Of a DNA stretch of 64,000 nt, positions 2,415-58,901 are shown one piece after another. A program made the translations under genes and the position numbers. The notes below the pieces were generated by a model. It did no database searches. It had not been told where the DNA came from and saw only the letters and a list, made by a program, of their open reading frames with translations. The stretch spans positions 452,001 to 516,000 of the forward strand of contig NZ_LT906480.1 of the NCBI RefSeq assembly GCF_900186865.1, written 5' to 3'. This stretch comes from Stenotrophomonas maltophilia. Its GTDB lineage: Bacteria; Pseudomonadota; Gammaproteobacteria; Xanthomonadales; Xanthomonadaceae. Each line of letters begins with the position of its first letter. Within the stretch, counting starts at the first letter, position 1.

Positions 2415-2712
2415 GAAGACGTTCAGCGTGATGGGTGTTCGGGGGTGAGATATTCCAAGGGGGCCGGGCGGGATAATTGATGCCGGACTACCCGGGATGT
2501 GGCGGGACTACCCAGTGCAGATCCGACGACGTTGCGCCAGCGGCAATCCATGCCAAGCGGCGGCGATTGTTGCGACATCGCAACATTTGAGCCAGCTTCA
2601 CCCTCGATCCAAATGCCGCGCCGGCGCGGCATTTGCCTGAGTGAAATGCGTCGACGTCGACGCATTTCGGACACAATGTCCGTTTTGGCGTAGCAGCGTC
2701 ACTGCACCGCTG

Positions 2713-2778
2713 GCCCAGCCCGGGCTATACCACACCGCCTGCTAAGCACCCAAAAGCGACATCGTGTCGCTTTTCGAG
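2713..2778. repeat. Duplicated 66-base unit, copy 1 (with palindrome)
   Basis: A non-palindromic segment starting GCCCAGCCCGGGCTAT is followed by the palindrome with arms AAAAGCGACA / TGTCGCTTTT (spacer TCG) and then CGA. The same unit recurs at 2969-3034. Confidence 0.85.
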
Positions 2779-2811
2779 CCTCGTCATCAGATGACACCAG
2801 TCCTTGATCGT

Positions 2812-2923
2812 GGCGACCGTCGCCGGATTGCCGCTGTCGTCGGCGTAGGGCGCCCCGACGTAAGCCTTTGATTCAACAGTGCTCGCGTACTGTTCGGCGA
2901 TGATTTTGTCGGCGACCGTCGCC
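2812..2923. repeat. Two copies of a 13-base interrupted dyad
   Basis: GGCGACCGTCGCC occurs at 2812-2824 and again at 2911-2923, between the two duplicated units of the palindrome region. Confidence 0.6.
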
Positions 2924-2968
2924 GCGACGAGCGCCGACTGGATGCACCCGACGCGCATGGCGACACTT

Positions 2969-3034
2969 GCCCAGCCCGGGCTATGCCACACCGCCTGCCA
3001 AACTGCCAAAAGCGACTCAGAGTCGCTTTTCGAA
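2969..3034. repeat. Duplicated 66-base unit, copy 2 (with palindrome)
   Basis: Nearly identical to 2713-2778 in its left part. The palindrome has arms AAAAGCGACT / AGTCGCTTTT (spacer CAG): the innermost pair has flipped from A-T to T-A and the spacer has changed, so symmetry is kept while sequence drifts. Confidence 0.85.
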
Positions 3035-3388
3035 CGCCGCCATACGTTGCGCGGGGCCGTCCACCAGGGCAAAACGGCCGACGTCGGCCGTTTTCGTAAG
3101 GCCCATTGAATCGCGTGAAATGTCGCGACGTCGCGACATTTGGACAATACAGAAATCATGCGAATTCGCATGATTTGGCCGATACAGTGCCGATCACCAA
3201 AAGTGCCACTGTGGCACTTTTGCCAGTCATTGCCGCCTGTCTCACGCCCCAAATCGTGCGGCGCCGCACGATTTGCCTGCCATCCCCATAGAGGAAAAAC
3301 GCTCGGCGCCGAGCGTTTTGAGCGAAATCTCATTTCTAGAAACTGGTTTCAGGGAATTGCCTCGACGCCACCGGAATACTTTCGTCAC

Positions 3389-3404
3389 CCGGACAGCTGT
3401 CCGG
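3389..3404. promoter_or_regulatory. Perfect 16-base palindrome just upstream of the Mor-like gene
   Basis: CCGGACAG followed by its reverse complement ends four bases before the ATG at 3409. The inner GACAGCTGTC recurs at 4074-4083, upstream of the tail-chaperone gene. An operator for one of the Mor-like proteins is possible but inferred only from position and symmetry. Confidence 0.4.
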
Positions 3405-3408
3405 TTTC

Positions 3409-3978
3409 ATGAATGTCATCTGGAGCAAGAGCGTGTCGGCCAACAGAACCTTTTTCGATGAGGTTACGGACGTGATCCGTCTTGTCCTCAGTAGCGCGGA
3501 TGTTCCGCATGCCGACGCCCTCGCGGTATCCAGCCAAGTGTGTGGTCGGATCAAGTCCCAATTTGGAGGCAGCACGATCTACCTGCCGACGAACCGGTCC
3601 AAGGCAGGAGGGCATGCCAGCAAGCTGGGGATGGAACTCCTCGACCTGGTTGAGGACGAACTCTCTCATCAACTGCGCCAGGCGGCCCTGCTGGATGACC
3701 TGGAGCTCGCCGCTGCGACCGAAGACGTTCGCCAGGAGCTGCTGGCTCGATGCTGCTCTCTTTGCATCTACGTACCCAGCGGGCAACGGGATGCCGCATT
3801 GGCAAGGGCACTACAGGCTCACTCCCACCTTCAGAACAACAAGAGCAGGAGCGAAATCGCGACGATGCTGAATGTATCGACCCAAGCCGTCTGCAAGATG
3901 ATCAGGCGTGCAGAGAAACACCTCCAAGCGACGAACAAGCTAAAGGACGGTGAGCACCACAAGGAGTGCCAGGTATGA
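3409..3978 (+). CDS. Mor-like transcription activator, two Mor-type halves
   Basis: 189 residues. The Mu Mor/C family is marked by a GG..IYIP strand followed by a helix-turn-helix. Here GGSTIYLP is at residues 53-60, and a second related strand, LCIYVPSGQRD, at 118-128 leads into a helix-turn-helix (about 146-168, SRSEIATMLNVSTQAVCKMI). The protein thus looks like one degenerate plus one complete Mor-type unit. Mor activates the middle promoter of phage Mu; here it heads a cluster of phage tail genes, so a role as their activator is plausible. The start ATG is four bases after a 16-base palindrome, and no good Shine-Dalgarno is visible. A tiny reading frame overlaps its stop by ATGA. Confidence 0.65.
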   Translation: MNVIWSKSVSANRTFFDEVTDVIRLVLSSADVPHADALAVSSQVCGRIKSQFGGSTIYLPTNRSKAGGHASKLGMELLDLVEDELSHQLRQAALLDDLELAAATEDVRQELLARCCSLCIYVPSGQRDAALARALQAHSHLQNNKSRSEIATMLNVSTQAVCKMIRRAEKHLQATNKLKDGEHHKECQV

Positions 3979-4073
3979 CGCTTCGTTCATTCCAGATGCT
4001 TGCCATCGAGAGCGGCAAGCGGACCCTCTACTCGCTTTCCGTACCGTGCGCACCCGGACCCGGGTCCTCATGA
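3975..4073 (+). CDS. Possible 32-residue peptide translationally coupled to the Mor-like gene
   Basis: The ATG overlaps the stop of the preceding gene as ATGA and is preceded by AAGGAG at a usable distance. It encodes 32 residues beginning MTLRSFQMLAIESGKR. No family is recognised; the coupling is the only support, so this may be chance. The end contains the palindrome GGACCCGGGTCC. Confidence 0.3.
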   Translation: MTLRSFQMLAIESGKRTLYSLSVPCAPGPGSS

Positions 4074-4083
4074 GACAGCTGTC
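4074..4083. promoter_or_regulatory. Palindrome GACAGCTGTC, second copy
   Basis: Lies 40 bases upstream of the tail-chaperone ATG. It matches the centre of the palindrome in front of the Mor-like gene (3389-3404). A shared operator is an inference. Confidence 0.35.
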
Positions 4084-4123
4084 CGCTTCTGTTTCAATTC
4101 GCTCACAGACCCTGAGGTGAAAA

Positions 4124-4588
4124 ATGGCTAAGAAGATTGGAAACGTGGATGCCGAGCTGGGCACCAGCGAGGCGACGCAGATGACTGAAACCGGCAGTGA
4201 AGGCGGCCAGGCTGAACTGGAGATATTGATGGGCGAAGGCCAGGTTCGGGTGGCCGGCCAACAGCTCTCTGTACGTGAGTACACCTTCGCCGAGGGGCTT
4301 TTCATCCAGGCTACCGCTCGATCCTTCCTGGAAGATCTGTACGGCGTGTTCAAGCCAGGCAGCACCGTTCCCAGCTTCGAGCAAGTGAGTGCGATCTGCG
4401 CTCGCAATGCCGATGTGATTCTGGACCTGATGGCGAAGTCAGCCAATGTCGAACGCAGTTGGGTGGAGTCTCTGGCTGAGGCCGAGGGTGAACTGCTGAT
4501 GCTTGCCTGGTGGAGAGTGAACTCCGGTTTTTTTATCCGTCGGGTCCTCCGGCGCGCAATCGCAGAGGCGCCCCAAAGCAACCCGTGA
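4124..4588 (+). CDS. Phage tail assembly chaperone (G-like, short form)
   Basis: 154 residues, directly upstream of a second overlapping frame and the tape-measure gene, which is the standard place of lambda G/GT-type tail chaperones. The product begins with a polar, acidic segment followed by a helical domain (about residues 55-130). The start ATG follows a TGAGG Shine-Dalgarno. Near the end, in frame, is a run of seven T (4528-4534) read as two phenylalanine codons (NSGFFIRR); slipping back one base here moves the ribosome into the frame that ends at 4806. The sequence also resembles uncharacterised phage proteins of the DUF6631 type, but I am less sure of that name. Confidence 0.7.
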   Translation: MAKKIGNVDAELGTSEATQMTETGSEGGQAELEILMGEGQVRVAGQQLSVREYTFAEGLFIQATARSFLEDLYGVFKPGSTVPSFEQVSAICARNADVILDLMAKSANVERSWVESLAEAEGELLMLAWWRVNSGFFIRRVLRRAIAEAPQSNP

Positions 4589-4806
4589 GCTGGGCCAAGG
4601 TCTTCAGCGCCTTGACCCAGGCGGGCTATGGGCCTTGCCAGCAACTGAAATCAATGACGGGACGTCAGTTGCAGCTTCTCTACCGCGAATCGCAGCTACA
4701 GCGCCGTCGCTTTCGCGCTGAACGCATCAACGACATGAATGCCGCCGTGAACGGCGCACCCAAGGAAACCGCAGCGCTGCTCAGGCATCTGCTGTCAGAG
4801 GAATAG
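4534..4806 (+). CDS. Tail assembly chaperone extension (T part of GT), made by -1 frameshift
   Basis: This frame lies -1 relative to the preceding gene and is open through the slippery run T TTT TTT at 4528-4534. A -1 slip there would give a fusion of 137 residues of the first frame plus 90 residues starting YPSGPPARNRRGAPK and ending HLLSEE. A stem with arms CGTCGG (4538-4543) and CCGGCG (4549-4554) starts three bases after the slippery run and could stimulate the slip. An alternative GTG start at 4585 overlaps the upstream stop as GTGA but has no Shine-Dalgarno. The stop is two bases before the tape-measure ATG. The fusion would recruit the tape measure to tail subunits, by analogy with lambda gpGT. 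Confidence 0.6.
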   Translation, partial: YPSGPPARNRRGAPKQPVSWAKVFSALTQAGYGPCQQLKSMTGRQLQLLYRESQLQRRRFRAERINDMNAAVNGAPKETAALLRHLLSEE

Positions 4807-4808
4807 TC

Positions 4809-7800
4809 ATGGCAAGCAAGCGCAGCATGGAACTGGCGATGCGTATCGCCGTGGATATCGAGCAGGCGCAAAAGGCGCTGCCGGTATTGCAGCGTGGCTT
4901 GAGCTCGATTAAGGATGCTGGCAGTGCTGCTGGTGTTGGCTTTGACGCGTTGGCGCAGAAGTCCACCAAGGTTGCACAGGCCTTGGACAAAGCCAGCAGG
5001 AGCAGCTCTGAGTCCGCAGGCCGCATGGAAGAGGCGGGGGCAAGTGCTGCCAAGGGTGCCGCTGGCATGGAGGCAGCGGGCGGCTCGGCCAAAGCCATGT
5101 CAGCAGATGTTGCAGCTGCGGCAGATCGCGTGCGTGCATCTGGCACCGCCGTTCAAAAGACGGTTGCTGACGAAATTCGCATGATTGGAGAGCTTGATGC
5201 CCGGTTGCAGCGCGGTGCAGCAAGCATGGCCGACCTGGCTGAAACGGAGACCCTGCTCGATAGGGCGATGTCCAGAGGGTTGCTCAGCACCGAGGACTAC
5301 AACAACGCAATCAAGACTCTGGATAAGCAGGGTGGCGCGCTCGCGCGCACTGAGCGACAGCGCGAGCAGGCCGTGGATGGGGCTGTAGGGCGCTACGACA
5401 AAGCCTCGGTCAAGCTCCAGAAGCTCGAGCAGGATGAGCGTGCACTCAAGGTTGCAGTAGACTCCGGCCGAATCAGTCGTGAGCAGTACAATCGCGCGTT
5501 GTCGGACCTGACCGCGCAACGCAATGCGGTCAAAAACGCTGATGCGCTCTCGCGCTCAATGGGTGCTGGGGCCGTATCTGCGGGCCAGTATCAGGCCGCC
5601 ATGCGGCAGTTGCCTGCGCAAATCACCGATATCACCACCAGCCTGGCAACAGGCATGCCGATCTGGATGGTGGCGGTGCAGCAGGGCGGCCAGATCAAGG
5701 ACTCTTTCGGCGGCATCGGCCCTGCTGCGAGGGCGGTGGCGGCGGCCATCAACCCGATGGTGCTGGCTGTCGGCGGTACCGCTGCGGTGCTGGGCTCTAT
5801 GGCGTATATGGCCCACCGTGGCTACACGGAATTGCTATCGCTGGAGTCGGCGATCATCGCCAACGGTGGCAGCTCGGGCAGGACTGCTGGCCAGCTGAAC
5901 CAGCTTGCCGGTGAGGTTGGCGGGCTGGTCAAGGACTACGACCTGGCGCGCGCGTCGGTGGAGCAGCTCACTCGAAGCGGTCAGCTCTCAGGAAAGACCC
6001 TGGACGATGCCAGTCGCGCAGCAGCTGCGATGGCAAAGCTGACGGGTGATTCCATCGATTCGACCACCGCCAAGATTTCCGAAATCGCCAAGTCACCTAC
6101 CGAAACGCTGCGCAAGCTCAGTGACCAATATGGCTTCCTGACCGTTGAAGTCTACGAGCATGTGCGTTCTCTCGAAGAGCAGGGGCGCGAGACCGACGCG
6201 GTTCGGGTGGCGGTGGAGTATATGGCCGACGTCTACACCGAGCGGCTCAAGCGCGTGCAGGATGCCACTCGCGGCCTCACTGGCTTTGTGAGCCAGCTTC
6301 GTCAGGAGTGGCAGGCCTTTACGGCAGACCTGAAGAACATTTCCAACCCAACGCTGGAAATCGATATTGCCAAGACTCAGCAGCAGCTTGCGGCGCTGCG
6401 CAGTGGCGCTTTCGTTGCACCTCGATATCTGAGCGATCAGAACCGGGCCAACGATATCGCCGAGCTGGAGCGCCGACTGGCGCTGTTGAAGGCGCAGAAG
6501 GAAGACCAGGACGAACTCGCGTCGGGCGAGGCTTTTGTGACAGGACTGCGCCGAAAGGGTGTTGCCGTAGCAGATGACCTGGCACGTGCGCTCGATAGTG
6601 GTGCCAGCAAGGCCGAGAAGCTGAGAAAGGCCACTGCGGAGGTCGCCGATCAGTTCCGTACGCTTCGTGCGATCAGCCCCGGCAGCGACCTGCTCAAGGG
6701 AGTGGTGTTTGGGGACGATGGCAGCGTCAGCGGCGGTGCCTATGACCGGCGCGTCAAGCAGCTACAAAGTCAGTTTCGGGAGACGACGCCCAAGGCTCGA
6801 AAATCCGACGCGCAGAAGGATGAGGCCGCTGCACAGCGAGAACTGGAGCGGCTAAAGCAGCAAATTCAGCTGGTTGGAACGCTGGATGAAATGCACAAGA
6901 AGGCTACCGAAAAGGCTCGTATCGAGGCCGCTATTGCCGAGGGTGAGTTCAAGAATGCCACTGCGCGCACAAAGCAAGAGCTGCTGGACAAGGCAGCGGA
7001 GAAAGACCTGGCTGACCAGCGCCTTGATGCTGAGCGGCAGCTGCTCGGGGTCAGGGATCGAATTGCCCAATTGCAGGGGCAAGGCCCGGATGCGGAACTG
7101 GCGAAGACCCGCCGAGAGCTGAACCTGCTCAAGCAGGAGCTGGAGCGGCTGGGCGAAACAGCCAAAGCGGCCGACGTCACCAAACTACTCAACTTGAGCG
7201 AGGCGAGCACACGCTTCAAGACGTTGCAGGAGACCTACAACCAGACGATGGGTGCGATCGCGCTCGAGCAGCAGCGCATCCAGGTCGAGCTTCAGGCGGG
7301 GCTCATTACCGAGGCGCAGGCTCAAGATCGCATTGTGGCGGTCTACCAAAGCAAGCTCAGCACCATCAGGGAGATTCTCCCGGAGATGCGTGCCATCGCG
7401 TTGACGCTCAAGGACCCGGCAGTCATTGCGGCGGTGGATCAGATTCAGCTGAAGCTCCAAGAGATGGGGCAAACAACCAGCCTTCTGCAACAGTCGATCC
7501 GCAACACCCTGGAAGGGTCATTCAAGAACCTGTTCATGTCCCTGGTTACGCAAACCGATTCACTGAGTGATTCGATTGCCAACTTCTTCTCCAGCTTGGC
7601 GCTGGGTATTGCCGAGTTCGCCGCAGCTCAGCTTGCTCAAGCCGCAGCCATGCGTCTTATGAGCCTGTTCCCCGGTTCGAGTGGCGGTGGAGATGGGGCG
7701 CAAGAGATGACCAAAGCAGCAACGGTTGCGGCAGCAGCCGGTGCAGCTATTGGCCTTGGTGCCGCGAAGCTGGAGACCTCTGCAACCACTCTGGGGTCCT

Positions 7801-8306
7801 CGGGACTCGGCCTGGTCATCGGCGCGCAGGCGGTCAGCAAGGCCGCTAGCCAGATGCAGGCTGCTGCCGCGGCTATGGCTGTGTCCAGTGCAGCCAGCTT
7901 TGCAACTGGTGGTTGGACCGGGCCTGGTGGTAAGTACCAGCCTGCCGGCATCGTGCATGCCGATGAATTCGTCTTGCGCCAGGAAGTGGTTCGTCAGTCT
8001 GGTGCCAAGACATTCCTCTCAGCATTCAATCGAGTGGGCATGGCTGCCATCGGCGGCTGGCGCGATGGCTACGCGGAGGGCGGCCCGGTCAGCCTTGGAC
8101 AGCCCATGTCGGTCTCACAGCCAATGGCGAGGATGGTGGCTACTGGCGCTCCCGCGAGCCAGGCACCGCGCATTGGATTGCGGATGGTGAATGTGGTGGA
8201 GCCGAGCTTGCTGGCGAACTACCTGGATGACCCCGGGAGTGACCACGTGTTTATTAACAAGATCAATCGCAATTCCGAGGCGATCCGCCAGGTGTTGGGA
8301 GGCTGA
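4809..8306 (+). CDS. Phage tail length tape measure protein
   Basis: 1165 residues, mostly long alpha-helical, charged coiled-coil sequence, as expected for a tape measure that sets siphovirus tail length. Near residues 265-335 it has the prophage tail-length signature: LPAQITDITTSLATG, then VAVQQGGQ with FGGIG, followed by a hydrophobic helical hairpin (about 305-335). The C-terminal part has glycine/alanine-rich helices and the typical ending GGWTGPGGKYQPAG with HADEFV (about 1032-1055). GAGG precedes the ATG. It follows the tail chaperones directly, but no tail-tip genes follow; instead a Mor-like gene starts two bases after its stop. Confidence 0.9.
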   Translation: MASKRSMELAMRIAVDIEQAQKALPVLQRGLSSIKDAGSAAGVGFDALAQKSTKVAQALDKASRSSSESAGRMEEAGASAAKGAAGMEAAGGSAKAMSADVAAAADRVRASGTAVQKTVADEIRMIGELDARLQRGAASMADLAETETLLDRAMSRGLLSTEDYNNAIKTLDKQGGALARTERQREQAVDGAVGRYDKASVKLQKLEQDERALKVAVDSGRISREQYNRALSDLTAQRNAVKNADALSRSMGAGAVSAGQYQAAMRQLPAQITDITTSLATGMPIWMVAVQQGGQIKDSFGGIGPAARAVAAAINPMVLAVGGTAAVLGSMAYMAHRGYTELLSLESAIIANGGSSGRTAGQLNQLAGEVGGLVKDYDLARASVEQLTRSGQLSGKTLDDASRAAAAMAKLTGDSIDSTTAKISEIAKSPTETLRKLSDQYGFLTVEVYEHVRSLEEQGRETDAVRVAVEYMADVYTERLKRVQDATRGLTGFVSQLRQEWQAFTADLKNISNPTLEIDIAKTQQQLAALRSGAFVAPRYLSDQNRANDIAELERRLALLKAQKEDQDELASGEAFVTGLRRKGVAVADDLARALDSGASKAEKLRKATAEVADQFRTLRAISPGSDLLKGVVFGDDGSVSGGAYDRRVKQLQSQFRETTPKARKSDAQKDEAAAQRELERLKQQIQLVGTLDEMHKKATEKARIEAAIAEGEFKNATARTKQELLDKAAEKDLADQRLDAERQLLGVRDRIAQLQGQGPDAELAKTRRELNLLKQELERLGETAKAADVTKLLNLSEASTRFKTLQETYNQTMGAIALEQQRIQVELQAGLITEAQAQDRIVAVYQSKLSTIREILPEMRAIALTLKDPAVIAAVDQIQLKLQEMGQTTSLLQQSIRNTLEGSFKNLFMSLVTQTDSLSDSIANFFSSLALGIAEFAAAQLAQAAAMRLMSLFPGSSGGGDGAQEMTKAATVAAAAGAAIGLGAAKLETSATTLGSSGLGLVIGAQAVSKAASQMQAAAAAMAVSSAASFATGGWTGPGGKYQPAGIVHADEFVLRQEVVRQSGAKTFLSAFNRVGMAAIGGWRDGYAEGGPVSLGQPMSVSQPMARMVATGAPASQAPRIGLRMVNVVEPSLLANYLDDPGSDHVFINKINRNSEAIRQVLGG

Positions 8307-8307
8307 C

Positions 8308-8994
8308 GTGCAAGATAGACGCTCAAAGACTTGTGATCATCCGCTCAAATGCGGCTGCGCGCCCGCAGACGCGTGTCAGACACCAGCGGGCAGGGGTGCG
8401 GCTGACGATGGGCAGGGTCAGGGGTGGGCGACAAAGGTGAGCGACTTGGCGCCATTCTCAAATGAGGGCTCGGGTGTGATGGAGGGCCTTGCTGCCGCTC
8501 TTGCGCGTGCATTGCACAAGCTGAATTCAGAGGTGGACGTTCCTGCGGTAGTTGGAGCGGCTATTCAGTACGTCGCGCGGGAGCATGGCGGGGTCAATCT
8601 GTGCTTTCCGGTCTCCGCCGAAGGTGCGGGACGCCGCAGCGACACCAAGGCTCGCCGGGACGGATTCATTGCCGGATTGAAAGCGGAGGTCATCCGCCAA
8701 CTGGTAATCCGTGGGTGCGACCAGGACAGACGCGAGGCGGCTGGTGCAGCGGCCGTGGCGTCTGTGCTGACGGCATTCTCTGGGGGATCGGTCTATATCC
8801 CATCGATGGCGGCTTACCGCCAGGCCGAGCAACACGCGGCAATTGTTTCCCGCTACCGAGCCGGAGAGAGAACTCATGAAATTGCTGCGTCCTGTGGCAT
8901 CTCCGAGCGCTCGGTCCGTCGAATCTTGCAGCGAAGCCGCGAACGCAATCGACGTGAAGGTCGGAACTGGAAAGCAACAACTGATAGGCCGTAG
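8308..8994 (+). CDS. Second Mor-like regulator, duplicated Mor half
   Basis: 228 residues from a GTG start with GGAGG five bases upstream, the Shine-Dalgarno lying inside the end of the tape-measure gene. It contains two GG-strand motifs: HGGVNLCFP (about residue 94) and SGGSVYIPS (about 160), followed by a helix-turn-helix (about 183-210, THEIAASCGISERSVRRIL). This is the layout of the Mor/C activator family and of the first Mor-like gene at 3409, although the two share little sequence outside the motifs. The cysteine-rich N-terminus (CDHPLKCGCAPADAC) could bind metal. A regulator so close behind a tape measure is unusual. Confidence 0.6.
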   Translation: MQDRRSKTCDHPLKCGCAPADACQTPAGRGAADDGQGQGWATKVSDLAPFSNEGSGVMEGLAAALARALHKLNSEVDVPAVVGAAIQYVAREHGGVNLCFPVSAEGAGRRSDTKARRDGFIAGLKAEVIRQLVIRGCDQDRREAAGAAAVASVLTAFSGGSVYIPSMAAYRQAEQHAAIVSRYRAGERTHEIAASCGISERSVRRILQRSRERNRREGRNWKATTDRP

Positions 8995-9053
8995 AAGCAC
9001 GTGATTGCTGCGTATGCAGCTCTCTATTCCTACCCTGTGACAGGCATTTCAAA

Positions 9054-9626
9054 ATGGCATTGCGTGCATTTCAAATCTTCCGAGCTGGAACATGGAACTC
9101 TCAGTCTGGCTCGGTCACCATCGACAAGCGGGCCGTCACCGCCGTTGCCCTCAACTATAGCCAAGCGGTAAAGGCTGCCCCCTTGGTGCTCGGTCACCCT
9201 GAGGTCGAGACGAACACCTATGGTCAGGTGCGAGGCTTGGCTGAAATGGATGGCGAGCTCTACGCCTTTGCCGATGTGGATGACAGCCTGATCGGCTCGG
9301 TGCGAACTGGCTCCTACAAGAGCGTCTCAGCCTCGATTTACCTTCCCAACTCGCCAGGCAACCCCATGCCGGGTACCTACTACCTCCGGCATGTCGGCTT
9401 TCTGGGTGCTCAAGCCCCCGCTGTAAAGGGAATGCAGCCGTTGAGCTTTGCAGAACCTGCGCATGGCGGCACTCCCTCTGTTGCGAACTTCTCCGCACCC
9501 ATCGGGTACCAGGTTGATCGTGCACAGATGCAGTTGTACGAACTGGCGCGTGATGTGCAACACGCCAACCCATCTATCGGCTTTATCCAAGCCGCGATCA
9601 TGGCCCAAAAGGCCATTCAACGATAA
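9054..9626 (+). CDS. Prohead protease/scaffold-like phage protein (Mu I-like, N-terminal part)
   Basis: 190 residues. The pattern is that of Mu-like head protease/scaffold proteins: LVLGHPE (residues 44-50), GQVRGLAEMDGELYAF (57-72), GSYKSVSASI (86-95) and LRHVGFLGAQAPAVKGM (111-127), then SFAE. The family is usually longer, with a C-terminal scaffold; here only a short tail of about 50 residues follows, so the scaffold part is reduced or missing. It acts in capsid maturation in intact phages, but no portal, terminase or major capsid gene is nearby. Confidence 0.65.
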   Translation: MALRAFQIFRAGTWNSQSGSVTIDKRAVTAVALNYSQAVKAAPLVLGHPEVETNTYGQVRGLAEMDGELYAFADVDDSLIGSVRTGSYKSVSASIYLPNSPGNPMPGTYYLRHVGFLGAQAPAVKGMQPLSFAEPAHGGTPSVANFSAPIGYQVDRAQMQLYELARDVQHANPSIGFIQAAIMAQKAIQR

Positions 9627-9635
9627 GAGGTCCCC

Positions 9636-10430
9636 ATGAACACCATCACGGAAATCCAGTCCAGCATCGAAAGCCTGGGCGCGATCAAAGAGAAAATCAC
9701 TGCCGCCGTTTCTGAGCGCTACCAGCGCTTGGAGGTGCTGGCCGGGGAAAGGGGCAGGATCGTCTCGCAGCCCGTGTCGCGCAGGGACTACACGACGCTC
9801 GTGTGGCGCATGCTGGATCTGAAGGCTGATCACTATCGTCAGAGGCTCACCGATGAGCTCAGGAAATCCATCTTTGGGAACGGTGACCCCGGCCAGATGA
9901 AGGCCACTGTAGGGTCGGCCATGCGGGTCAACACGATGAAGCCCGACGATATGCTTGGCATCCTGCCGGGACAGCTGCGCGGAGCGGTCTACGGCGGTGA
10001 TTTTGACAGGGAGCCGCTCACCCAGCTTGCCGCTACCTACTTCCTCCTGGATGAGATGAAGCTGGCGACTGCCGACGCCCTGGATGGCATCGCAAATTGG
10101 CCCAAGGCCCTCCCGCTCAAGGCTTCGCTGGCGAAGATCGGCGAGATTGATCGGGAAATGCTCAGCATTGAGTCCGAGCTGGAGTTGCTGAAAAAGGATG
10201 CGCACCGCATCGGCCTGACCCTGCCACCGAAGCCGGTGAAGGTGGAGCCGATCCAGCCGGGTAGCTGGGAGTGGTTGAATCAGCTGACTGAGAGCGTGGA
10301 GCGTCGCCGGCGACAGGAGGCGATTGACGATCCCCTGCGCGCTCGGTCAATCGTTGTGCGGGATGGCGTCAGGGGCTGGATGCGCATGAATCTGGAAACC
10401 GGCCAGGAAGAGTTTGTTCCCGAGCGCTGA
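9636..10430 (+). CDS. Hypothetical phage-associated protein
   Basis: 264 residues, starting nine bases after the protease-like gene with AAGAGGT as Shine-Dalgarno, so the two are probably cotranscribed. The N-terminal 60 residues and residues 165-200 are predicted helical or coiled coil (ESLGAIKEKITAAVSERY; EIDREMLSIESELELLKKDA). The C-terminus is arginine-rich (VERRRRQEA). No family was recognised. It could be a structural or scaffold partner of the preceding protein, but this rests on position only. Confidence 0.55.
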   Translation: MNTITEIQSSIESLGAIKEKITAAVSERYQRLEVLAGERGRIVSQPVSRRDYTTLVWRMLDLKADHYRQRLTDELRKSIFGNGDPGQMKATVGSAMRVNTMKPDDMLGILPGQLRGAVYGGDFDREPLTQLAATYFLLDEMKLATADALDGIANWPKALPLKASLAKIGEIDREMLSIESELELLKKDAHRIGLTLPPKPVKVEPIQPGSWEWLNQLTESVERRRRQEAIDDPLRARSIVVRDGVRGWMRMNLETGQEEFVPER

Positions 10431-10664
10431 GCCAGGCGCTAACGGACAAGCGGTGCGTGTCCGTGGGCCTCGGCCTCAACAACGACCGCAGGGTGGGCTG
10501 CTCTTCCGGCCGTTGGCCGTTCGCCAGATTCTCCGAGGGCGAAGTCACGGGGCGGTGACCACCCAACCCCAGAGCTGTTGCATGTGCAGCCTCGGGGGTG
10601 TAATGTCTGTCCCGTCGCCCCACATGGGCGTCCGGGATTGCAGTCCCATCAACCTGAGGCGCAT
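10431..10664. other. Gene-free region after the phage-derived cluster
   Basis: No convincing reading frame. Visible structure includes a hairpin CGGACA...TGTCCG at about 10443-10463. The stretch GATTGCAGTCC followed by ACCTGAGG near 10636-10659 is repeated further right (about 10813-10850) in front of the gene at 10859. Confidence 0.5.
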
Positions 10665-10696
10665 AAAGCGCCCATCGCCCGATGAAGGCGCTTTTT
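10665..10696 (+). terminator. Rho-independent terminator
   Basis: Stem AAAGCGCC ... GGCGCTTT with an inner CATC/GATG stem, followed by a T run (10692-10697). It would end transcription of the phage-derived cluster before the structured leader. Confidence 0.7.
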
Positions 10697-10736
10697 TGTT
10701 GTCCCGCATCGGGCGGGGGCGGCCAGTCAGTTTTAT

Positions 10737-10832
10737 GGCGGGCGGTGCGCGGGGGTCGAAAGACCCACCGGTCCTCAGGCCGGTACTGCAACCGTGCATC
10801 GTCCGCCACCATGATTGCAGTCCGGGTGGCGG
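10737..10832 (+). ncRNA. Structured 5' leader: three-way junction with a competing hairpin
   Basis: Outer stem 10737-10751 pairs with 10793-10807. It encloses a hairpin 10753-10766 (GGGTC, GAAA loop, GACCC) and a hairpin 10767-10784 (ACCGG/CCGGT). A third hairpin, CCGCCACC (10803-10810) with GGTGGCGG (10825-10832), uses bases of the outer 3' arm, so the two folds compete. The same architecture with different loops and compensating bases lies in front of the gene at 27706. A cis-regulatory role is inferred. Confidence 0.6.
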
Positions 10833-10858
10833 TCACTCACAGACCTGAGGACCCGACA

Positions 10859-11251
10859 ATGAACATGACCAATTCCGCCAGCCAGCCCCCTTCCCGCTCG
10901 CTCAAGCTGGCAGCATCCCAAGCCCATGATGACCTTGACACCATTGCCGGAGCGCTGAATGGCCTGCGCGACGCGCTGGAAGTCCGGGGCAACAACGACG
11001 CCATCAACCGGGATAACCTGGCGATGCTCTTCCACGCCACTGAGGCACGCAACTTGCCGGAGGGCGTCAGTGATGAGGGGATTGGCGAGGCCCGCGCTGC
11101 GATCATCGACCTGATCAGCCCCGAGGCCAACTTGAACGGCATCTCTCGCGCCCGTGTGTGGTCGCTGGTCTGCCTGCTGGCCAAGCTGCAAGAGGTTGCC
11201 GTCCACCGGCTCGGCGAGATCGTGCACGGCCATCCAGCTCTGGATGCTTGA
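10859..11251 (+). CDS. Small hypothetical protein behind a structured leader
   Basis: 130 residues, mostly helical and acidic. The ATG is chosen because it follows CCTGAGGACCCGACA (TGAGG Shine-Dalgarno) and the structured leader at 10737-10832; no good in-frame start lies upstream. Similar size and similar leader are seen for the protein at 27338-27706, but the sequences are not clearly homologous. The arrangement recalls the DUF3077/DUF6124-type small proteins of gamma-proteobacteria, which is a tentative comparison. An intrinsic terminator follows at 11285-11308. Confidence 0.6.
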   Translation: MNMTNSASQPPSRSLKLAASQAHDDLDTIAGALNGLRDALEVRGNNDAINRDNLAMLFHATEARNLPEGVSDEGIGEARAAIIDLISPEANLNGISRARVWSLVCLLAKLQEVAVHRLGEIVHGHPALDA

Positions 11252-11284
11252 CCGCCCTATTCGGTCCACAGCAGCCTCAACCTG

Positions 11285-11308
11285 ACGCCCCGGCCATCCG
11301 GGGCGTTT
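11285..11308 (+). terminator. Rho-independent terminator
   Basis: Stem ACGCCCCGG / CCGGGGCGT with loop CCAT, then TTT. It ends the gene at 10859-11251. Confidence 0.75.
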
Positions 11309-11353
11309 CTGCATCTGCAAATTCGTTACACGCTACGCAATCTGCGGCAGCAT

Positions 11354-11389
11354 CCATTTATCGCGCATTCCACGCCCCATTTATCGCGC
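11354..11389. repeat. Direct repeat of 13 bases, period 23
   Basis: CCATTTATCGCGC at 11354-11366 and 11377-11389. It lies between the phage-derived cluster and the first core gene on the right. A regulatory site or an old attachment site are both possible. Confidence 0.5.
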
Positions 11390-11463
11390 GCCGTTACAGA
11401 TGGGGGACGCTGGACTCTAACCGCACAGTCGGATCGAAATGTTCAGAAAACGCTGCGCACCCG

Positions 11464-17206: not shown

Positions 17207-17700
17207 TCATCGATCCGGCCACAAGCGGGTCAGTTTTGGGCCACGGCCAGCCCCGCGCACAGCAAAAGGGGCGCCCCTTGCGAGGCGCCCCGGGCAACAC
17301 TGTGGAAGGGAGCGAGGCAGGGCCAGACGGCGGACCGAAGCGGGCGAGGCCAACACTCAAGGCCTACCCTGAGGGCAGGGTGGGGGCCAATCCAGAGGCA
17401 GGTGCGACACGTTGTCGCCGGTTCAGCGCTAGCCCGCGCTGCCGATACGGCAGGCTGTGGTGCTGCCCTACAACCGTCATCGGCAGCGGTAACACTGCGT
17501 CCTGCACATGGGCGCAGCGGCCCGCAAGCGACAGCCCGCGCAGCCACCAAGGCCCGCCGCAGGGCCGTCAGCGGGCCCGGCAAGCCCCTTGCGGACACTG
17601 GCCGGTTGCATCCATACGCCTGCGTAGCCAAGTGACGAAAGCCCTTGGTGCGCTACACTTTGCGGTCTAGAAATCTATACAACAGTCGCGCGCGTGCGTG
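17207..17700. other. GC-rich gene-free region upstream of aceE
   Basis: No protein family is recognised in any frame. On the minus strand a strong hairpin (GGGGCGCC / GGCGCCCC, 17270-17293) is followed by TTTT, as if a minus-strand transcript of roughly 300-400 bases ended there. The RNase P, tmRNA, SRP and 6S signatures I looked for were not found. The right end should hold the aceE promoter; TTGGTG (17645-17650) and TAGAAA (17668-17673), 17 bases apart, are one possible -35/-10 pair. Confidence 0.4.
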
Positions 17701-49954: not shown

Positions 49955-50180
49955 TTTGCCTTTGCCTTTGCCTTCTTCTGTTGATTCCGTGGCGGGACGC
50001 CGCCGGAACCTGTCAGAGGCCGGGACGGTTGGGTTCGCGGGGGTGTCCGCGGCATGGATGCCGCGGCCAAGCCCCCACGGACGGGTTTACGGCGCCCCCC
50101 GCGAACCCGACCGTCCCGGCCAACCCTGGGATAGCAATACGCGACCCGCCACGAGGGGCTCCGCCGTTCGCCGTCCTACT
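49955..50180. repeat. Large intergenic repeat, copy A
   Basis: A conserved core at 50041-50098 (starts GGGTGTCCGCGGCATGGATG) is enclosed by copy-specific inverted arms 50020-50043 and 50095-50119, and is followed by the module GAGGGGCTCCGCCGTTCGCC. Copies B and C are near 58671-58901 and 58951-59205. Confidence 0.75.
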
Positions 50181-58670: not shown

Positions 58671-58901
58671 GCGCCTTCGGCGGGGATCGGCGAACGGCGG
58701 AGCCCCTCCGTGGTGGCGCTACAGCGTGATTCTTGGGCTTGGCCGGGTGGGTAGGCGGGTCGGGGGACGCCGTAAACCCGTCCATGGGGGCTTGGCCGCG
58801 GCATCCATGCCGCGGACACCCCCGCCCCGCCTACCCACCCGGCCTTGGACAGATCTCTGCAGCTGATCCACCACGGAAAATCACAAACAAGAGCAAAAGC
58901 G
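58671..58901. repeat. Large intergenic repeat, copy B (reverse orientation)
   Basis: Core at 58766-58824, inverted arms 58741-58768 and 58818-58845, flanking module GGCGAACGGCGGAGCCCCTC at 58690-58709. It is an inverted partner of copy C. Confidence 0.75.

Follow-up and report, generated by a model that had tools for sequence, protein, structure and literature searches.

An array of distinct palindromes in a likely satellite of transposable phages from Stenotrophomonas maltophilia

We analyzed a window of 64,000 nucleotides from the Stenotrophomonas maltophilia genome (positions 452001-516000; genome G000, C1), which contains an 8,963-bp element at 2436-11398. Just inside its left end lies a row of ten different palindromes of 23-24 bp. 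Transposable phages have single palindromes of the same design, placed within a gene of the DUF3102 family or directly against it. A first-pass annotation, prepared from the sequence of the window, had described at least ten near-perfect palindromes starting AAAA or AAAT and ending TTTT or ATTT, and placed them at 2566..3404. We recovered ten such dyads between 2611 and 3319; the remainder of that interval includes a degenerate dyad at 2565-2588 and, at 3389-3404, a palindrome of a different kind.

The palindrome array and its element

The dyads are given below with their closest counterparts in transposable phages, here called helpers.

2565-2588: degenerate eleventh dyad, GATTGTTGCGACATCGCAACATTT (by eye); its counterpart at 7205 of contig L022 is better preserved
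2611-2634: site 1, 24 bp; outer 10 bp common with helper L114, centre different
2644-2667: site 2, 24 bp; full match to the site within the gene in helpers L115, L116, L117 and L123; phiSHP3 has an 18-bp core
2752-2774: site 3, 23 bp; full match, on the other strand, to the site within the gene in helpers L105 and L107
3008-3030: site 4, 23 bp; closest helper site at 4 mismatches
3071-3094: site 5, 24 bp; outer 10 bp common with the in-gene site of L149 and L156
3118-3141: site 6, 24 bp; full match to the site within the gene in helper L147
3153-3176: site 7, 24 bp; outer 10 bp common with helper L144
3199-3221: site 8, 23 bp; closest helper site is the resident helper type, at 3 mismatches
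3251-3274: site 9, 24 bp; outer 10 bp common with helper L143
3296-3319: site 10, 24 bp; outer 10 bp common with sites abutting DUF3102 genes in L150, L151, L152 and L157; differs from the PhiKM site by 2 mismatches
3389-3404: palindrome CCGGACAGCTGTCCGG, directly before the Mor-like gene, differing in design from the array and possibly an operator

All ten sites, which lie 175-883 bp inward of the left end of the element, differ from one another, and their half-arms are unrelated under a constant design, as the annotation had recognized. Nine lack any mismatched pair, and the dyad at 2752 has a single mismatch adjoining its centre. The seven 24-mers follow the pattern AAAW N4 CG NN / NN CG N4' WTTT, with CG at positions 9-10 and 15-16 in every case, and the three 23-mers start with AAAAG and have an odd centre. 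A comparison with shuffled sequence, which the annotation had proposed, gave a clear answer: with arms of at least 10, its region holds 10 palindromes, whereas 300 dinucleotide shuffles average 0.01 and never exceed 1. Across 20 stretches of the same genome (400 kb, including stretch L027 with 6 kb of a resident helper prophage), no AAA...TTT dyad of 23 or 24 bp was found at one or no mismatched pair, and seven were found at two. Genome-wide, AAAWN4CGN4CGN4WTTT matches 14 places, comprising seven in this array, six in a second copy of the element and one host terminator-like site.

The spacers vary in length and sequence, and no constant repeat of the kind that marks arrays of clustered regularly interspaced short palindromic repeats (CRISPR) lies between the palindromes. 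By eye, a motif like GAGCCAGCYTCACCCTC appears repeatedly in the spacers, in either orientation (window 2588-2610; L017:9270-9297, 9514-9535 and 9721-9742 in the second copy), and array units thus seem to have been duplicated and inverted. Hairpins unrelated to the array occur at window 50047-50066 and 58796-58815 and at L017:7746-7771; we take them to resemble the repetitive extragenic palindromic (REP)-type repeats of this genus.

The element is organized as follows, with percentages denoting identity.

2430..2435: target-site duplication GATGGG, left copy, 6 bp
2436..2564, + strand: element left end, TGTTCGGGGGTGAGATATTCC..., resembling the left ends of phiSHP3 and the resident helper prophage
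3409..3978, + strand: Mor-family transcription activator, 189 aa (PF08765, 6.5e-10)
4124..4588, + strand: tail assembly chaperone, 34-35% to phiSHP3 and Bhz63
4510..4806, + strand: second chaperone frame, overlapping the first, 37% to the phiSHP3 gpGT extension region
4809..8306, + strand: tape measure protein, 1165 aa, 43% to phiSHP3 and 57% to the resident helper
8476..8994, + strand: second regulator of the Mor/C family, 29% to phiSHP3 Mor; open frame from 8191, with an uncertain start codon
9054..9626, + strand: head maturation protease limited to its N-terminal part, 190 aa, 45% to phiSHP3
9636..10430, + strand: 264-aa satellite protein with no assigned function
10731..10813, + strand: C4 antisense RNA (Rfam RF01695, 65.9 bits, E 2.8e-11)
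10859..11251, + strand: open frame of 130 aa, shared by the two copies in the genome (coordinates by eye)
11355..11398, + strand: element right end, with two CATTTATCGCGC repeats and a terminal ATTTATCGCGCGCCGTTACA like phiSHP3
11399..11404: target-site duplication GATGGG, right copy

Among the gene products, resemblance to phiSHP3 (29-46% identity) is confined to the chaperones, the tape measure protein, the protease part and one Mor relative; the first Mor gene has no phiSHP3 match. The two overlapping chaperone frames (4124-4806) are arranged like phiSHP3 gpG/gpGT, an overlap that suggests a programmed frameshift. Searches with tblastn (1e-3) for the phiSHP3 transposases A and B, large terminase, portal, head morphogenesis and major capsid proteins gave no match in either genome copy, such that the full set of a transposable phage (transposase A and B plus structural genes) is not present, and no DUF3102 gene was found in the satellite. 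Genes of an autonomous phage are hence missing from two separately placed copies, each with 6-bp duplications, and, together with its phage-like ends, this makes the element a likely satellite of transposable phages.

The second copy (G000:C1:3003123-3011987; L017:9124-17988) is bounded by CTATTC, where the window copy has GATGGG. Both start with TGTTC...GTGAGATAT and finish with CGCGCGCCG(T/G)TACA, and the phiSHP3 ends match. Window positions 3153-11398 are 97% identical to this copy; further left, in the array, identity is 84% over 2531-2800, and no long collinear match covers 2801-3152. When seven sites of the two copies were paired by order and flanks, seven base pairs had changed on both sides with complementarity kept, compared to four other changed pairs. 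Array symmetry is mostly kept while the sequence diverges, and this pattern points to selection on the sites. By eye, the C4 antisense RNA region of the second copy (L017 ~17310-17400) differs at many positions while the surrounding genes are nearly identical.

A third copy, on IMG/VR contig L022, shows no change in gene order and carries a separate array, with no 6-bp duplication found. Among the places listed for 395 family genomes, at least six pattern matches within 1 kb occur in G000, G192 and G455; G311 and G343 have five matches each, at places beyond this list. G455 contains a complete 8,315-bp element with the duplication CTTGCG, a shortened tape measure gene and relatives of the protease and 264-aa protein, and in G192 the array is followed by a tape measure gene and then the contig end; both arrays sit directly inside a phage-like left end. 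Arrays thus occur in two further genera besides Stenotrophomonas, with a gene set partly conserved across the three. The 264-aa protein is encoded in 3 of the 395 genomes, the same three that yielded arrays (in G192 on another contig), and array, tape measure, protease and 264-aa protein occur together in both G000 copies, L022 and G455. The proposed link between the palindromes and a Mor/tape-measure cluster is borne out.

Other searches for related arrays were unproductive. Array DNA as query had no match among phage or plasmid records, and the only two matches among 60 relatives (G012 and G047) were weak and revealed no array. Weak Mor matches at a third place in G000 and in G031 and G096 came with neither an array nor relatives of other satellite genes; the third G000 place, the only one inspected for genes, resembles ordinary chromosome. 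A profile search of the genome contigs with the Mor alignment found no relative, and the helper right-end pattern had no match in IMG/VR.

Single sites at DUF3102 genes of transposable phages

The same genome contains a phiSHP3-like prophage (G000:C1:1017491-1055952) flanked on both sides by GATTCG, the left end of which matches the satellite left end. This resident helper has one site of the array design belonging to the 23-bp class, and both length classes of the array thus exist in helpers. A scan of 91 genomes of the genus revealed one exact 24-mer in a phiSHP3-like prophage of G005, within the gene adjoining transposase A; most pattern matches outside G000 resemble host terminators. phiSHP3 and Bhz63 possess an 18-bp version at the same codons. 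The gene belongs to DUF3102 (Pfam match in 18 of 23 members) and to PHROG 1748, whose function is unassigned. A clear palindrome is present in 9 of 14 DUF3102 genes (phiSHP3, Bhz63, G005, Ps59, Fc22, B3, KP12, PhiKM and Mae-JY22) and a weak one in LspJY19, with none at the usual part of the gene in Ps60, Bise, JBD18 and JBD67. JBD18 and JBD67 (L094, L095) instead have CCGAACGGTTCGG twice within the gene and no single 24-mer at the usual place. At 27 IMG/VR loci, taking the best dyad per gene in a 100-bp zone, we found a perfect site in 18, one mismatched pair in three and two mismatched pairs in six, where a two-mismatch 'site' may be chance. Weak DUF3102 matches in G099 and G102 came without a design site.

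Sites from five satellites (57, of which 49 are distinct) were compared with 20 distinct helper sites, and six are common to both sets over the full 23-24 bp. Flanking sequence agrees by a few bases at most in nine comparisons, which fits a protein footprint. After further scans, eight of the ten window sites match the outer 10 bp of some site at a DUF3102 gene, three of them being identical throughout.

Arms chosen for their presence in the window and the other arrays were also used to predict helpers. Patterns with the arms CATG/CGTG and GTCG, for which no helper was known beforehand, match seven non-satellite IMG/VR contigs, and in four of these the site lies in a clear DUF3102 gene (L143, L144, L146 and L147). 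L142 and L145 are counted apart, as their assignment is a weak DUF3102 match and a similar helix motif seen by eye, respectively. In the seventh contig the site (L148:3033-3056) falls within a gene for an XRE-like repressor. A Ps60-like DUF3102 gene lies 2.6 kb away, and no other design site was found within the 13.5 kb covered, which suggests that the site may change place. The sites of L147, L144 and L143 are exact matches to sites in the window, L017 and G455 arrays, respectively. By eye, the L142 palindrome (1784-1807) lies in a gene that fuses a DUF3102-like N-terminus to an apparent phage adenine methyltransferase.

A third arm pattern matched 11 contigs, two with the site in the gene, five with it abutting the inferred DUF3102 start and four without DUF3102 in the piece covered, as in L158 and L159. 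Also among the four is L154, which has six design palindromes in ~440 bp (348-789), a terminase-like match and no detected DUF3102; it is perhaps another kind of array. The hairpins of L155 have AT-rich surroundings and are terminator-like.

Palindrome sequence tracks the DUF3102 recognition helix with r = 0.88 over 17 genes, a hand-chosen set with near-duplicates dropped in which the resident helper and L104 have one common site. The predicted fold (residues ~63-192) resembles ParB/Noc with middling scores. Pfam detected no N-terminal CTPase (ParB/Srx) domain in 23 members, and the predicted N-terminus is helical or of low confidence. Two other candidate binders, an IclR-like helix-turn-helix protein and transposase A (N-terminal part only), are disfavored because helpers whose sites differ completely still share each of them at 99-100% identity. 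Each helper DUF3102 protein presumably binds its own palindrome. The annotation had proposed that symmetry or hairpin formation was the selected property and that no single protein recognizes the array. Co-variation with the recognition helix and the single helper sites speak against the former as the sole property. The latter holds, and a better reading is that many members of a single family of DNA-binding proteins have one site each.

Proposed helper-specific sites and competing explanations

We consider it probable, with reasonable rather than high confidence, that the element is a transposase-less satellite of B3/phiSHP3-type phages and that its array consists of helper-specific binding sites for ParB-like DUF3102 proteins, approximately one per helper lineage. 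This reading builds on direct observations: the anatomy of the element, the finding that some array sites are identical to helper sites, the way site and helix vary together, and the association of arrays with such elements. Each DUF3102 protein, encoded next to the transposase, would bind its own palindrome near the transposase genes, and a satellite devoid of DUF3102 would depend on a matching cis-acting site for the services of the helper. Through binding in cis, a helper could come to handle the satellite like its own DNA, be it in transposition-replication, in packaging or in protection from insertion, and candidate roles of DUF3102 for the helper itself include the transposition complex, packaging, insertion immunity and autoregulation. 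The array would then set the range of usable helpers, and the divergence of helper sites would explain why the satellite keeps many. Five 24-mers are shared between arrays and helpers, versus a mean of 1.14 and a maximum of 5 in 5,000 resamplings that draw arms column by column from array letters. Because this null ignores kinship among array sites and its maximum equals the observed count, sharing by itself is modest evidence.

Site number and site diversity bear on whether the array might instead act as a sponge that titrates helper DUF3102, disabling helpers or waking the satellite upon helper induction. Satellites often interfere with their helpers, and at least ten sites here face one in the helper; however, a sponge would be expected to repeat one site, and nearly all sites of an array differ, with exact duplicates found only within a tandem repeat in G455. 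Distinct and mostly unrepeated sites favor a collection of helper sites, and we regard titration as rather unlikely. The annotation had also raised bidirectional terminators, an insulator or RNA hairpins acting as transcripts. Although every site could form a stem of ~10 bp, some end in TTTT and the array sits between a mobile end and the Mor gene, the stems are GC-rich and mostly remain symmetric through the centre (innermost pair complementary in 19 of 23 24-mers from three arrays, next pair in 23 of 23), which neither an RNA loop nor a terminator needs. T-runs are 3-4 long, whereas the terminator-like hairpins sampled from the genome show either loops of 4-6 or T-runs that are longer, and single sites in or abutting helper DUF3102 genes track a DNA-recognition helix. 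Such transcript-based roles are very unlikely.

Proximity to the Mor gene downstream would also suit sites for the satellite's own Mor/C-type regulators. Yet in G192 only ~90 bp, with no detected Mor relative, separate the array from the tape measure gene; the putative Mor operator at 3389-3404 is a different palindrome; and helper sites lie at DUF3102 and not at mor, making this explanation highly improbable. Quasi-palindrome correction is a known mutation process, and template switching between arms could in principle keep functionless palindromes perfect. Near-constant length, fixed ends, the lack of such dyads at 0-1 mismatch in the 400 kb sampled and the exact agreement with helper sites across genera render it scarcely credible.

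Beyond helper-specific binding, we see an even chance that these phages possess a hypervariable identity system, in which a ParB-like DUF3102 protein and one matching palindrome mark the phage's DNA as self, be it for transposition, for packaging or for insertion immunity, and a family of transposon-like satellites forges many identities simultaneously through an array of at least ten different sites. The array can then be read as a list of the helpers that the satellite was selected to use.

Relation to known systems and significance

Phage satellites are represented by P4, phage-inducible chromosomal islands (PICI) and Staphylococcus aureus pathogenicity islands (SaPI), capsid-forming PICI (cfPICI) and PICI-like elements (PLE). 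The present element resembles these in its small size, incomplete virion genes, some helper-like structural genes, helper-like cis-acting signals and a candidate helper in the same genome. Unlike them, it has transposable-phage ends with 6-bp duplications, no integrase or transposase that we could see, a tape measure gene and a row of many different helper-type sites. Mini-Mu likewise combines transposable-phage ends with the lack of a transposase, and is in principle movable in trans; it is not known to have such an array, whereas our element is natural and has both an array and a gene set partly conserved in three genera. The predicted DUF3102 fold, and the position of a palindromic site next to or within the gene that encodes the protein, recall ParB, Noc and KorB with parS or the Noc-binding site (NBS). 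In contrast to those systems, DUF3102 has no detected CTPase domain, the 23-24 bp site lies at a transposable-phage gene, and satellites carry sites without the protein. CRISPR arrays similarly present a row of short, equal-length, different sequences matching different phages, but the units here are palindromic, lack a constant repeat and equal a probable protein site and not a protospacer.

In searches of the open-access PubMed Central literature, judged by title and start of abstract, we recognized neither a satellite of transposable phages nor a function for DUF3102. As a satellite the element belongs to a known kind. To our knowledge, nothing comparable to an array of helper-specific sites for ParB-like proteins has been described.

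If our reading is correct, the element would be a satellite of transposable phages, and DUF3102/PHROG 1748 would gain a probable role in DNA recognition. The array would be the satellite's key ring, letting many different helpers recognize the parasite. A readable link between recognition helix and site would make a satellite's helpers predictable from sequence alone, and these elements would be a natural setting in which to test how parasites retain their access to multiple hosts as the host recognition signal diversifies.
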